A stretch of DNA of 64,000 bases from an uncultured Pseudomonadota bacterium (GTDB lineage Bacteria > Myxococcota_A > Bradymonadia > Bradymonadales > Bradymonadaceae), in NCBI GenBank assembly GCA_950059285.1, contig CATLTV010000005.1:1-64000 (forward strand). Reading direction: 5' to 3'. Every line of letters starts with the position of its first letter. Position 1 is the first letter of the stretch. Shown one piece after another: positions 9,566 to 51,448 of the stretch. Below the pieces are notes generated by a model, which had not been told where the DNA came from, did no database searches, and worked only from the letters and a program-made list of their open reading frames with translations. The position numbers were made by a program, and so were the translations under genes.

Positions 9566-9632
9566 GTTCAAAAAAAGAAGCGGGGGCGGCTAAATGTTTA
9601 AACATTTAGCCGCCCCCGCTTCTTTTTTGAAC
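9566..9632. terminator. Very long inverted repeat (29-bp perfect stem) after the 434-residue lipoprotein gene
   Basis: Perfect symmetry runs over 9571-9628 around GTTTAAAC. The core is GCGGGGGCGGC and its complement, with A6 and T6 outer arms. One bulge allows a further GTTC/GAAC pairing. It lies 19 nt beyond the stop of the minus-strand gene at 9651, so a terminator is the likely role. The A/T outer arms would let it work in both directions. Confidence 0.85.
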
Positions 9633-23486: not shown

Positions 23487-23557
23487 CAACAAGATAAGGG
23501 CGAAGGGGGCGGCGATTTACTGCGTAAATCGCCGCCCCCTTCGCCCTTATCTTGTTG
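23487..23557. terminator. 34-bp perfect hairpin after the VIT/vWA gene
   Basis: Arms 23487-23520 and 23524-23557 are exact complements over 34 bp with triloop TGC (apex TTAC-TGC-GTAA). The core is GAAGGGGGCGGCG. The outer arm CAACAAGATAAGG is the same as at 21209. It lies 31 nt past the stop of the minus-strand VIT/vWA gene. The sequence CTTGTTGCA is repeated directly after it (23551-23569). Confidence 0.85.
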
Positions 23558-32031: not shown

Positions 32032-32101
32032 TTGAGAACGCAAAAAAGAGGAGGCGCCTGCTGATAAATCAGCAGGCGCCTCCTCTTTTTTGCGTTCTCA
32101 A
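32032..32101. terminator. 34-bp perfect hairpin at the rimO/dps convergent junction
   Basis: Arms 32032-32065 and 32068-32101 are exact complements, with core GAGGAGGCGCCTGCTGA and outer GAGAACGCAAAAAAG. The exit side on either strand is CTCTTTTTTGCG. It starts 6 nt past the rimO stop and ends 7 nt before the dps stop, so it should stop transcription from both sides. Confidence 0.87.
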
Positions 32102-36667: not shown

Positions 36668-37522
36668 ATGTCAACCATCGCAGTTACAGGCTCAACAGGA
36701 CAACTCGGCGCTCTCATCATCAAATCTCTCAAAACCAAAGGCGCAAACGACGTCATCGCGCTTGCTCGCACTCCCAGCAAAGCAGAAGCCCTCGACGTCC
36801 CCGCACGCAAAGCTGATTACAACCAGCCCAACACACTCCTCTCAGCTCTCCAGGGCGTGGACACCTTGTGTCTTGTCTCCTCCAGCGAGGTGGGAAAACG
36901 CCTTGAGCAACACGCCAATGTCATCAACGCTGCCAAGGAAGCTGGCGTCAAAAATATCGTCTACACTAGCCTGCTTAACGCCGACACCTCCACGCTCTCT
37001 CTTGCTGGCGAACACATCGGCACCGAAAAACTCCTGAAAGAAAGTGGCCTCAACTACACACTGCTCAGAAATGGCTGGTACACAGAAAACTACGCCTCCG
37101 CAATCTCCGCCGCTCCGCAAATCGGTGGTGTATTCGGAAGCGCCAAGGACGGCAAAATCTCGGCTGCTACACGCCAGGATTACGCCGAGGCTGCTGCGGT
37201 AGTCCTGACACACATTGATGACCACAAAAACGCCTCTCATGAGCTCTCTGGTGATGTCGCATTCACCCTGGAAGACCTTGCCAATGAAATCGGCAAACAA
37301 ACCAACAAATCAATCTCTTACACAAATCTTCCTGCAGAAGAATACGCAAGCGTTCTTATCAAAAATGGCGTCCCAGAAGGCTTCGCACATATGCTCGCTG
37401 ATCTCGATGTAGAAACAGCAAAAGGCGCGCTCCACGATCCAAATAACAACACTCTCTCCACACTGATTGGCCGCCCCACCACACCACTCTCCACAGCGGT
37501 CAAAGACATCCTTAATGGCTAA
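36668..37522 (+). CDS. qorB: NAD(P)H:quinone oxidoreductase, QorB/NmrA-like
   Basis: 284 residues, ATG 36668 with AAGGAG eight nt upstream. It is an atypical short-chain dehydrogenase close to E. coli QorB (286 residues). The NADP-binding ITVTG-type start is AVTGSTGQLG. Family blocks follow: SSEVGKRLEQHANVINAAKE, IVYTSLLNADTS, LLRNGWYTENY, and a C-terminal LSTLIGRPTTPLS. It reduces quinones with NAD(P)H in the cytoplasm. In E. coli the neighbour is an HxlR regulator; here it is an Rrf2 protein with a shared operator. The stop codon lies within a 39-bp hairpin. Confidence 0.93.
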   Translation: MSTIAVTGSTGQLGALIIKSLKTKGANDVIALARTPSKAEALDVPARKADYNQPNTLLSALQGVDTLCLVSSSEVGKRLEQHANVINAAKEAGVKNIVYTSLLNADTSTLSLAGEHIGTEKLLKESGLNYTLLRNGWYTENYASAISAAPQIGGVFGSAKDGKISAATRQDYAEAAAVVLTHIDDHKNASHELSGDVAFTLEDLANEIGKQTNKSISYTNLPAEEYASVLIKNGVPEGFAHMLADLDVETAKGALHDPNNNTLSTLIGRPTTPLSTAVKDILNG

Positions 37523-37600
37523 GAAAAACAAGCGACCATAACAGGGGCGGCCATTTGACAAGTCAAATGGCCGCCCCTGTTATGGTCGCTTGTTTTTCTT
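37521..37600. terminator. 39-bp perfect hairpin covering both stop codons (qorB / GIN lipoprotein)
   Basis: Arms 37521-37559 and 37562-37600 pair at all 39 positions with a 2-nt spacer (AA). The outer arm AAGAAAAACAAGCGACC includes part of the qorB TAA, and the other end reaches the first base of the opposing stop. The core is ACAGGGGCGGCC. It is the longest stem in the window. Confidence 0.88.
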
Positions 37601-39910: not shown

Positions 39911-39967
39911 ATAAAAGCAAATTGGGCCAGTTTATCTTCAAGATAAACTGGCCCAATTTGCTTTTAT
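39911..39967. terminator. 27-bp perfect hairpin after gdhA
   Basis: Arms 39911-39937 and 39941-39967 are exact complements with triloop TCA. The core is AATTGGGCCAG. It begins 10 nt after the gdhA stop, with exit GCTTTTATCTTTC. A second, unrelated hairpin follows 6 nt later. Confidence 0.85.
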
Positions 39968-39973
39968 CTTTCA

Positions 39974-40036
39974 GATAAACAAATCAATGGGGCGAGGAAT
40001 TGCGCAGCAATTCCTCGCCCCATTGATTTGTTTATC
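39974..40036. terminator. 30-bp perfect hairpin before the cysS stop
   Basis: Arms 39974-40003 and 40007-40036 are exact complements with triloop GCA (apex TTGC-GCA-GCAA). The core is ATGGGGCGAGG. It ends 7 nt before the stop of minus-strand cysS. With the previous hairpin it forms a tandem pair, one for each convergent gene. Confidence 0.85.
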
Positions 40037-43847: not shown

Positions 43848-44177
43848 AATATATCCTCATCCTGAATGAATCGCACACCCGACCCCATATCGGGAGTGAT
43901 GCAACCTTTGACGCGCTCGTCCTATTCCCTGAACACTGTACCAAATTTCAGTATTCAAAACAGCTCAAAACATCATCTCTGTGCAGGCCAACGCCACACA
44001 TAAACCGCAACGATGAAATCTGAAATAAAAGATCGTATCGCCTTGTTTTGAGGGGGCTCTTGGGGTTGACTTTTTGCACCAATCTGACCGATGCTGACCT
44101 CATAATTCCCCATGGTCTGGAGCGCTGCTCCACCATCACCCTTTACCACATCCCCTCTTTCAGGAGAGTTCTTCACT

Positions 44178-45194
44178 ATGAGTGAATATGTCGATCCCCA
44201 TGATATCTACGCCATTAGCGATATAGAGCCCGAGGTCGATGACCTGCGTCGTCGCATCAATAACCTCCGTAAGGATCTCCACCGCTACTGGGTTGACAAG
44301 GAAACCCTTGTGGATTTGATGACCATCTGCACGCTCGCTCAGGAACCTCTCCTTCTTGTGGGTAAGCCAGGCACGGCCAAATCTGACCTCGTCGTCAAGT
44401 TCGTACAGGCCATCGGCCTTGATACAAACTCCGAGGATTACTTCGAATACATGCTCACACAGTTCACCGAACCTGGTGAAATTGTCGGCCCTATTGACAT
44501 CAATCAGCTCAAAGATGGACGCTACATGCGTCGTGTCAGCGGCAAGCTCCCACAGGCTCGCGTGGTCTTCCTTGATGAGATCTTCAAATCAAACTCCGCG
44601 ATCCTCAACACGCTGCTCACCATCATCAACGAACGCAAGTTCTACCAGGATGGTAAACCTGCCAAAGTCCCGATGTTGATGCTCTTTGCTGCCACCAACG
44701 AGATCCCCGACAACGCTGAACTTGCCGCATTGCGCGACAGGTTCACGCTCAAAGCCGAGAGCCGTCCTGTGCGTTCCTACGCCTTTGATGACCTGCTCGC
44801 CAAGGGCCTCCAAAACGAGGTCTACAAGGCCACCAAACAACGCCCGTGGGCCGATCGTGCGAGCCTTGAAGACTTCCTCAAACTCAAGGTCTACCTCGAT
44901 CATATCTTTGCAGGTGAACTTGAAGATGGTGTCCACCACCGCGACCGCTACTTCCCCGATGACGTCTACAGACTCTTTGTACGCATCCTGAAGTCTCTTG
45001 AAAAAGAGTTCCGCTACGAAGTCAGCGACCGTAAAGTCATCAAACTTTACAAGCTCATTCGTACACGCGCGTTCCTCATGCACGGCGGTGTGGTCAGCAA
45101 ATCTGACCTTGTGCTGCTTCGCTACATCTCCGACCGCGCAGAAGACCTCGACGCCATGCGCGATATGGTCGATCGTATGCTCAGCGTCGACTGA
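44178..45194 (+). CDS. MoxR-family AAA+ ATPase, RavA-like
   Basis: 338 residues from ATG 44178 (AGGAGAG about 10 nt upstream). The Walker A is VGKPGTAKSDLVV and the Walker B is VVFLDEIFKSNSAILNTLL. The block FTEPGEIVGPIDINQLKDGRY and sensor 1 in LFAATNEIPDNAELAALRDRF place it in the RavA branch of MoxR ATPases. These remodel complexes together with a von Willebrand A partner. The next gene encodes such a partner, after a 25-bp hairpin in the 108-nt gap. It is divergent from uvrB. The target complex is unknown. Confidence 0.92.
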   Translation: MSEYVDPHDIYAISDIEPEVDDLRRRINNLRKDLHRYWVDKETLVDLMTICTLAQEPLLLVGKPGTAKSDLVVKFVQAIGLDTNSEDYFEYMLTQFTEPGEIVGPIDINQLKDGRYMRRVSGKLPQARVVFLDEIFKSNSAILNTLLTIINERKFYQDGKPAKVPMLMLFAATNEIPDNAELAALRDRFTLKAESRPVRSYAFDDLLAKGLQNEVYKATKQRPWADRASLEDFLKLKVYLDHIFAGELEDGVHHRDRYFPDDVYRLFVRILKSLEKEFRYEVSDRKVIKLYKLIRTRAFLMHGGVVSKSDLVLLRYISDRAEDLDAMRDMVDRMLSVD

Positions 45195-45216
45195 TCTGCT
45201 GCACACGTATACCCTC

Positions 45217-45269
45217 AAAGGAGAATTTGGCGACCATTTGCTGCGCAAATGGTCGCCAAATTCTCCTTT
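45217..45269. terminator. 25-bp perfect hairpin between the MoxR gene and its partner
   Basis: Arms 45217-45241 and 45245-45269 are exact complements with triloop TGC (apex TTGC-TGC-GCAA). The exit reads CTCCTTTTAAAAC. It lies 22 nt after the MoxR stop and 33 nt before the partner ATG. It could attenuate the downstream gene and so set the ratio of the two proteins. Confidence 0.8.
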
Positions 45270-45302
45270 TAAAACAACCACTTCAAAACACCACACAACA
45301 CC

Positions 45303-46943
45303 ATGACCTCGCAATCCCAGTCACAGCCTGAATCCCACGACGCTGAGCTTGCTCCTGAAGTGGTTCACTTCCACACCCTTGAACGCTCATCCCAGAAGGT
45401 TGAACGCAGCATCCTTGAAGCCTACCTCCTTGGTAGCCTCAACCTCTCCGCCATGCGCTGGTGGGAACATCTCAACCTCCTTGAAGATGCTCTGGAATGT
45501 TACCGCTATCTGAGCGGTCGCATCTATGACAAGGGACAGCGCGGATTCACACACCTCCCCTTTATGCTCATCGTCGATCTGGTGATCCTTATTGAACTTG
45601 GTGACAGAGCCCCCTTTGCATCAGAAACCCTCTCCTCACAATGGCTCCCTCAGGAGCGACGCCTTCGCATTGATTACGAAAACTTGCTCCTTGGCACCTT
45701 GCTTCAGGAGCGCTCCTTCGTGGAGGCGCGCGAACGTCTCTCCACAAAACGTGACGTGCGTCAGGGCGCAGTACAGCGCCTTGCAGAGCTTTTACTCCAG
45801 ACCTTTGGGCGCTATTACCCACAGTGGCTCACCGTCAACCCATCTCACCTGCGTGGCTTTGGATTCCCTCCGATCACCAACATCAGCAGCGCCGAGATGC
45901 GCACATCTCTGGAACAAAGACTCGACGATGAGCTCATCTTCACGGATGCACTCCACCACATGCTCCAGGGCATCTCCAACAACGTCTACTGGAAAGACAT
46001 CCTCAAACAAGAAGACCTCTTTGAAATCGAACACTGGGAACTTCTCGACAATGAATCCACACGCATTGGCGTGCGACAAATTACCGAGATAGAACGACGA
46101 CTTGGAGAGTTTCGACTCCCTCGTGTCAGGCTCCAACAGGAGGCCATGGAGGTCGACACCGACTTTGATGATGACACAGTCTACCCCACGGGCGGCTTTT
46201 CTGGCCTCACCACACGTGGCTCCTTTGAAAACCTCGTGCGCTCCGAACTTGTCTACCTCGGAGAGGGGAGCCCCATTAGCCTGTTTGACCTGCGGTTTAG
46301 CGAAAACGAGCTGCTGTTTTACATGCGTAACGATGGCGTCATGCGTCGTCGCCGCCGCTTTGTACACGTGGTCCTCGACCTCGACACTGCGTTTCATTAC
46401 AAGTCACCAGGTTATGAATACCCGTTCTCAACCCTCACACAGGGCCTCATCGTTCGACTGATACATGACCTGATCACCACCTTTGAAGAGGATGCTGTCA
46501 CCATTCACATCCACTATATTCACAAACCTGATCAATCACTCCCCCACGATGTCATGGTCAGAAACAGGGAGCGCGTTGAACGTGAGATGTCTCTTGTCAA
46601 GCTCTCGCTTGACCGCGAAATCCGACAGGAACTCGTCGAAATCTCCATCAAGGAAGACATCGACCTCGACGAGATCCAGTTTGCCAAGGGCCGCATCTAC
46701 GCGCTCGCTTTTTGCTTTAGCGCCACACAAGAAACCTTCTGGCGTAGCTTGTTTAACGACCTCCAACACGTCAGAAATCCTGTGCAAGGCATCGTCTATC
46801 CTGTCGCTCTCGACGAACCCTCCGAAGACACTGTCTCCTCCGAGTTGCCTCTCTTCTTCCCCATGAAAGGGCTCTCCTTTACAGAGGTCGCCTCGCAGAA
46901 AAACGAACTCTTCGCGCGCATTGTCAGCGGCAAACGCATTTAA
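45303..46943 (+). CDS. MoxR-associated protein with degenerate vWA-like domain
   Basis: 546 residues. The N-terminal ~290 residues are helical and charged, without a known domain. A block at about 295-345 (YPTGGFSGLTTRGSFENL, then FDLRFSENELLFYMRND) resembles the segment ahead of vWA domains in MoxR partners. From about 345 to 520 a Rossmann-like alternation begins VHVVLDLDTAFHY, where a MIDAS vWA would have DxSxS; here the Ser residues are Thr/Phe or missing, so metal binding is doubtful. The position next to a RavA-like ATPase suggests a ViaA-type adaptor. The assignment is by context and weak motif only. Confidence 0.65.
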   Translation: MTSQSQSQPESHDAELAPEVVHFHTLERSSQKVERSILEAYLLGSLNLSAMRWWEHLNLLEDALECYRYLSGRIYDKGQRGFTHLPFMLIVDLVILIELGDRAPFASETLSSQWLPQERRLRIDYENLLLGTLLQERSFVEARERLSTKRDVRQGAVQRLAELLLQTFGRYYPQWLTVNPSHLRGFGFPPITNISSAEMRTSLEQRLDDELIFTDALHHMLQGISNNVYWKDILKQEDLFEIEHWELLDNESTRIGVRQITEIERRLGEFRLPRVRLQQEAMEVDTDFDDDTVYPTGGFSGLTTRGSFENLVRSELVYLGEGSPISLFDLRFSENELLFYMRNDGVMRRRRRFVHVVLDLDTAFHYKSPGYEYPFSTLTQGLIVRLIHDLITTFEEDAVTIHIHYIHKPDQSLPHDVMVRNRERVEREMSLVKLSLDREIRQELVEISIKEDIDLDEIQFAKGRIYALAFCFSATQETFWRSLFNDLQHVRNPVQGIVYPVALDEPSEDTVSSELPLFFPMKGLSFTEVASQKNELFARIVSGKRI

Positions 46944-46951
46944 CAACCTCA

Positions 46952-47008
46952 AAATAAAAAGAGGGGGCGGCCAAAATCGAAGATTTTGGCCGCCCCCTCT
47001 TTTTATTT
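46952..47008. terminator. 27-bp perfect hairpin at the MoxR-partner/mscS convergent junction
   Basis: Arms 46952-46978 and 46982-47008 are exact complements with triloop GAA. AAATAAAAAGAGGGGGCGGCC forms one arm (core GAGGGGGCGG), so both exits are CTCTTTTTATTT. It starts 9 nt after the stop of the partner gene; mscS ends at 47035 on the other strand. Confidence 0.87.
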
Positions 47009-48770: not shown

Positions 48771-48844
48771 TCGCCCATGACAAAAACGAGGAGAGAGGAT
48801 GTTTCATGTGAAACATCCTCTCTCCTCGTTTTTGTCATGGGCGA
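48771..48844. terminator. 36-bp perfect hairpin after the M23 peptidase gene
   Basis: Arms 48771-48806 and 48809-48844 are exact complements over 36 bp (core GAGGAGAGAGGATGTTTCA). The outer TCGCCCATGACAAAAACGAG yields an exit CTCGTTTTTGTC. It starts 6 nt beyond the stop of the minus-strand peptidase gene and separates it from mscS. Confidence 0.86.
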
Positions 48845-51381: not shown

Positions 51382-51448
51382 GACAAATAGAGGAAAAAGA
51401 AAGGGCGTGTTCCTGAGGAACACGCCCTTTCTTTTTCCTCTATTTGTC
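51382..51448. terminator. 32-bp perfect hairpin after the DUF4397 lipoprotein gene
   Basis: Arms 51382-51413 and 51417-51448 are exact complements with triloop TGA. The core is AAAGGGCGTGTTCC, with AGGAAAAAGAAAG outside it. It begins 12 nt after the stop of the minus-strand DUF4397 gene. The exit reads CTTTCTTTTTCCTC. Confidence 0.86.

Follow-up and report, generated by a model that had tools for sequence, protein, structure and literature searches.

A MoxR ATPase and a vWA-type partner lacking its metal site, probable motor and adaptor of an FtsH ternary system encoded at two loci

What does a RavA-branch ATPase do with a vWA-type partner whose metal site is missing? MoxR-vWA machines are usually explained by a metal site that holds the client, and the pair that raises this question stands apart in the window, the 64,000-nucleotide stretch of DNA analyzed here, flanked by uvrB and an mscS-like gene, which lie on the minus strand and were named from their sequences without a family search. 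The two genes and the gap between them hold the following features:

44178..45194, plus strand: MoxR AAA+ ATPase of the RavA branch, 338 aa (PF20030, bpMoxR)
44361..44384, plus strand: Walker A GKPGTAKS of MoxR, the GXXXTAKS variant of FtsH and beta-propeller ternary-system MoxRs; GTAKS invariant in 11 relatives
44568..44579, plus strand: Walker B FLDE of MoxR, invariant in 11 relatives
45217..45269, no strand assigned: perfect inverted repeat between MoxR and ivWA, with 25-nt arms and a 3-nt loop
45303..46943, plus strand: ivWA protein, 546 aa; PF19997 above cut-off, PF19996 slightly below
45405..46106, plus strand: predicted all-helical N-terminal domain of ivWA, residues 35-268 (AlphaFold2, block pLDDT mostly 82-97; PF19996)
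46182..46337, plus strand: finger-position segment, residues 294-345 (YPTGGFSGLTTRGSFENLVRSELVY...LFDLRFSENELLFYMRNDG), the most conserved part of ivWA
46356..46802, plus strand: Rossmann-like, vWA-type C-terminal domain of ivWA, residues 352-500 (structure models and fold search)
46377..46391, plus strand: degenerate MIDAS position, residues 359-363, DLDTA in place of DxSxS; K367 lies further on in the same loop

An AGGAG precedes the MoxR start at 44178, and an in-frame ATG lies further upstream at 44112. The protein matches PF20030 (bpMoxR) with E=1.5e-59, and an earlier note, made from the letters of this DNA, had rightly given it all AAA+ motifs of the RavA branch: besides the Walker motifs, sensor-1 N174, the Arg-finger D187/R188 and sensor-2 S283-D-R-K are invariant in the MoxR of 11 relatives. 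RavA is the only solved structure related to it by sequence, the match covering the 498-position RavA model only as far as position 283. The GXXXTAKS P-loop has been described for the MoxR of FtsH and beta-propeller ternary systems (Kaur et al. 2020, PMC7159879).

The partner leads to the same literature. ivWA matches PF19997 (‘ivWA, vWA domain found in the FtsH ternary systems’) with E=1.6e-20, at 73.9 bits against a cut-off of 35, and its N-terminus matches PF19996 (ivWA-helical_N) with E=2.3e-5, slightly below the curated cut-off. Kaur et al. 2020 (PMC7159879) distinguish four MoxR-vWA ternary systems. In the FtsH type the vWA is divergent and possibly without the metal-chelating aspartates; in the simple form of this type, the vWA is fused to a large N-terminal helical domain and a radical-SAM gene is present. 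The Pfam families of the FtsH ternary system are PF19996, PF19997 and PF20002-PF20005. Since that publication and these families already cover the pair, the earlier note’s statements that the N-terminus belongs to no known family and that the set is unusual cannot be upheld. Its guess at a link with conflict systems fares better, as the pair appears, judged by sequence, to match the published FtsH ternary system.

ivWA was sought in 96 related genomes, and 11 were positive, the window’s own included. A single-protein scan of public genome contigs returned no ivWA relatives, and an alignment query of public genomes returned 79 further loci, mostly from Myxococcota and partly overlapping the 96-genome set. 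With genes at the relatives’ loci called by a codon-model caller, profile searches give the canonical order rSAM-fvmX6-fvmX5-FtsH-fvmX3-analog-fvmX7-MoxR-ivWA, which is kept as far as Myxococcus and Nannocystis. The two genes do travel together elsewhere, MoxR lying immediately 5’ of ivWA in 53 of the 68 loci that have enough sequence, and the neighbor survey that the earlier note had proposed places the pair at the end of a conserved eight-gene operon in relatives. fvmX7 is linked in 34/41 eligible loci, and FtsH in 24/36. In Archangium, a Myxococcus and a Myxococcaceae MAG (L121, L122, L123, L129, L137), several kb lie between MoxR and ivWA. More distant second vWA-like proteins of ~475-545 aa (L071-L075, in genomes G049, G021, G043, G022 and G031) are perhaps from another MoxR-vWA system.

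Where, then, are the other six genes? In the window’s own genome (G000), in which a single ivWA was found, MoxR-ivWA is on contig C5, and fvmX7 and FtsH are on contig C30, which also carries the fvmX3-analog, fvmX5, fvmX6 (a match below the Pfam cut-off) and rSAM in canonical order. As C30 stops inside fvmX7, and the rest of that gene and anything after it are absent from the assembly, this genome by itself cannot prove a split. In the closest relative (G007), a complete fvmX7 is followed by opposite-strand genes, and MoxR-ivWA is on a different contig. The split is thus common to both genomes and probably predates the two genera, and the pair seemed isolated because the eight genes sit at two genomic places in this species. 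Related proteins (30% identity) are encoded 5’ of rSAM in both split genomes (L038:8448-10370 and L054:13692-14447), the L038 one being a right-handed beta-helix; possibly they are part of the ternary system.

The earlier note had also read DLDTAF at the MIDAS position and taken the metal site to be missing, and the family bears this out: DxSxS occurs at the aligned position in 0/73 ivWA family members, and the first MIDAS Asp is retained in 37/73, compared with an intact DxSxS in 15/15 ViaA-like proteins. MIDAS loss is family-wide and no quirk of the 546-aa protein found here; Kaur et al. 2020 (PMC7159879) had already noted that metal-binding aspartates are lost in ivWA. Where the MIDAS serines would lie, the loop has R365 in 60 of the 73 members and K367 likewise in 60 of 73. 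The window’s ivWA has H365 and K367 at these positions, and so retains the Lys alone of the Arg/Lys pair. Purely as a hypothesis, these basic residues might stand in for the metal.

So what does ivWA conserve instead? Conservation averages 3.29 bits per column over residues 294-345 and 1.4-2.4 in the rest of the C-terminal half (73 members), a contrast that is partly built in because most of the 73 sequences had been found by searching with two stretches of the segment as patterns; in the 11 relatives for which the full-length protein was the query, invariant residues likewise cluster there. In NorQD, a finger directly ahead of the first vWA strand reaches into the ATPase pore and is indispensable for remodelling, a mode that the authors propose to be general, naming RavA/ViaA (PMC13036017, PMC9976466). 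New here is the indication from the alignments that ivWA has lost the metal site but conserves the stretch at the position of the NorD pore finger more strongly than any other part of the protein. Neither phmmer nor profile searches of ivWA against PDB sequences gave a match, and with no sequence similarity between ivWA and solved structures, ‘finger’ denotes equivalence of position and does not imply homology with NorD. Across much of the segment pLDDT is below 50 in both monomer models, which may also reflect a shallow alignment; its position, conservation and low monomer confidence would suit a segment that folds on its partner.

That the partner is ViaA-like, as the earlier note held, gains from a profile comparison of ivWA with a 15-member ViaA set, which gave E=2.7e-5 for the C-terminal and 1.6e-5 for the full-length alignment, E-values of a single comparison (74-79% probability), against 0.77 for an unrelated alignment as negative control. 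The profile alignment spans the 294-345 segment into strand 1, where D359 meets the first MIDAS Asp. Only the 15-member set matched, single-sequence ViaA against ivWA not being significant (E=0.28 and 0.4). These comparisons lend good support, short of proof, to homology of ivWA with ViaA through the segment ahead of vWA strand 1, which is likewise new here. The structure models show a Rossmann-like sheet for the C-terminal domain at high confidence, and the fold search puts the vWA of Ku70/80 among the best matches, with low TM-scores and other Rossmann folds mixed in; with a best value of E=1.1e-3 (Ku70/80) and nothing below E=0.001, it is not statistically decisive. A vWA fold is nevertheless likely, the family and the ViaA comparison being the main grounds.

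We consider it likely that the pair supplies motor and adaptor to a ‘simple’-type FtsH ternary system with its genes in two loci, and that it works by the general pore-finger mechanism. Speaking for this are the Pfam families at curated cut-offs, the published system, the eight-gene order, the genes on C30, the shared split in G007, co-occurrence, the ViaA profile match, the conservation of the segment, the loss of DxSxS, R365/K367 and the NorQD finger. Counted against this explanation are the literature and PADLOC results given below, the lack of a fold match below E=0.001 and the end of C30 inside fvmX7. MoxR would assemble as a hexameric ring, the conserved ivWA segment would enter its pore in the manner of the NorD finger in NorQ, and the helical N-domain would anchor on the rim of the ring, so that the finger and vWA, driven by ATP to rotate against the N-domain, could remodel the client. 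Having no metal site, ivWA would not grip the client via a metal-bridged acidic residue, and the conserved Arg/Lys pair in the same loop may hold it instead. A likely client would be the fvmX7/FtsH assembly, any particular client being much less certain than membership and the general mechanism, and the MoxR step may arm or release an FtsH proteolytic response, probably against an invader.

A bolder version, which we think rather unlikely, is that ivWA has swapped the metal for the conserved Arg/Lys pair in the strand-1/helix-1 loop, that MoxR grips and remodels its client metal-free with the finger segment as the conserved function, and that the system acts in trans from two separately controlled loci. 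A whole family that retains the finger-position segment but is without the metal would part the needs of the motor from those of client binding. A literature search turned up no experimental study of an FtsH ternary system, and the defence role of these systems rests on phyletic and architectural arguments (Kaur et al., PMC7159879), by which the system is thought to fight infections. Because the eight-gene order is conserved in cultured Myxococcus and Nannocystis, such systems are open to experiment.

The FtsH on C30, which is unlinked to MoxR-ivWA, is 64% identical to the operonic FtsH of a relative (G006). It retains GPPGTGKT, DELD and HEAGH, its hydropathy profile shows no membrane segment, and it should therefore be a soluble ATP-dependent protease. 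Pfam finds one AAA domain and a complete M41 protease in it, and its N-terminal ~290 residues match nothing; the published component has two FtsH-type AAA copies, the first inactive (PMC7159879). The rSAM adjoining fvmX6 on C30 matches Fer4_12/Radical_SAM and has CxxxCxxC. In one relative (G023, L025:12448-15990), FtsH carries an intein with a LAGLIDADG domain inside the ATPase domain, and that of another (G025), which matches in two separate pieces, probably has the same insert. With ATPase and zinc-protease motifs intact and no membrane segment, this FtsH would also fit a stress or proteostasis device, in which the gene set regulates soluble FtsH proteolysis and is not a conflict system. This reading, which rivals the last step of the mechanism only, is possible but on the unlikely side. 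No conventional toxin-like effector was seen in the gene set, and no defence genes or defence island were found around the MoxR-ivWA or the FtsH locus, which would suit such a device; PADLOC on the pair and its neighbors gave no specific defence family, its uvrB and FtsH matches being generic helicase and AAA. However, the distribution is patchy, with a strong match in 11/57 genomes of the class, and enrichment in multicellular bacteria has been reported (PMC7159879).

The pair alone might also be a RavA-ViaA-like chaperone that works apart from the FtsH locus on a housekeeping client (e.g. a respiratory complex or one with a metal cofactor), as its place between uvrB and the mscS-like gene, RavA as the sole solved relative and the homology of ivWA with ViaA would have it. 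We hold this to be improbable, since ivWA never occurs without soluble FtsH where both were sought: of 25 genomes of the family and order, 6 have ivWA and FtsH, 1 has FtsH only and 18 have neither. The chance of this co-occurrence, 7/177100 (~4e-5), treats the 25 genomes as independent and makes the evidence look stronger than it is, given their common ancestry. Moreover, most linked homologues belong to the same operon, and the metal-inserting NorQD requires the MIDAS (PMC9976466) that all ivWA family members lack. That the pair is a decaying remnant, stranded from its operon and without function, is very improbable: it is apart from the other six genes, and the intergenic hairpin could lower co-expression, but both ORFs are intact with all motifs present, and the same split persists in G007 (86% identity to the window in MoxR, 56% in ivWA) with the conserved segment retained in both.

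The hairpin between the genes, which had been taken as a mark of the set, is real, but it is far from special to it. It is one of 12 perfect hairpins with arms of at least 25 nt in the window, another of which lies just past the pair:

46952..47008, no strand assigned: 27-nt perfect hairpin 3’ of the pair, between convergent genes

Further long perfect hairpins lie at 9571-9628, 23487-23557, 32032-32101, 37521-37600, 39911-40036, 48771-48844 and 51382-51448 of the window (see also L172-L191). Counted as perfect inverted repeats with arms of at least 20 nt and loops of 0-6 nt, 488 kb of the genome contain 78, with arms of 20-41 nt that mostly differ in sequence, compared with 1 in five family members (~446 kb), 0 in eleven more relatives (~299 kb), 1 in the 79 other loci (1.26 Mb, overlapping the relatives in part) and, in a Markov control of 464 kb, 0 even with arms of at least 15. 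The hairpins sit at gene ends, at a median of 21 nt past the stop codon, and 31 are in convergent gaps, of which crude gene calls give 39. The outer part of the 5’ arm is A-rich and its middle G-rich, and such purine-rich arms suggest bidirectional terminators. 45217..45269 is probably a terminator (attenuating) and belongs to a class spread across the genome, and 46952..47008 is a probable terminator between convergent genes. An operon-specific switch was rejected because the genome has so many hairpins of this kind; loss of SbcD and REP/Y1 transposases are unsupported as causes, SbcD being present and no Y1/REP transposase having been found. Although the genome is a draft of 441 contigs, assembly error is an unlikely origin. 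For bacteria, a survey covering 118,019 genomes found perfect inverted repeats enriched 3’ of stop codons (PMC13155455). The genome-wide excess seen here may be more surprising than the MoxR-ivWA pair itself.

How does the pair compare with other MoxR-vWA machines? With the beta-propeller ternary system it shares the MoxR family name (PF20030), the P-loop variant and a divergent vWA, but no beta-propeller follows the vWA here, ivWA having no propeller family match and stopping after the Rossmann-like domain. NorQ-NorD likewise combines a MoxR motor with an N-domain, a linker, a finger-position segment and a vWA; NorD, however, requires its MIDAS and serves iron insertion into cNOR. RavA-ViaA of E. 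coli has the same layout of a RavA-branch ATPase followed by a partner with a helical N-domain, a pre-vWA segment and a C-terminal vWA-type domain, whereas the MoxR found here is without RavA’s C-terminal extension (338 vs 498 aa), ivWA is without a MIDAS, and the pair belongs to a larger gene set. From the FtsH ternary system as published, the present one differs in having its genes at two loci, here and in G007, and in that Pfam sees one AAA followed by M41 where two AAA copies are described. It shares with that system the GXXXTAKS MoxR, ivWA with its helical N-terminus, FtsH, fvmX5, fvmX6, fvmX7, the fvmX3-analog and the radical SAM protein.
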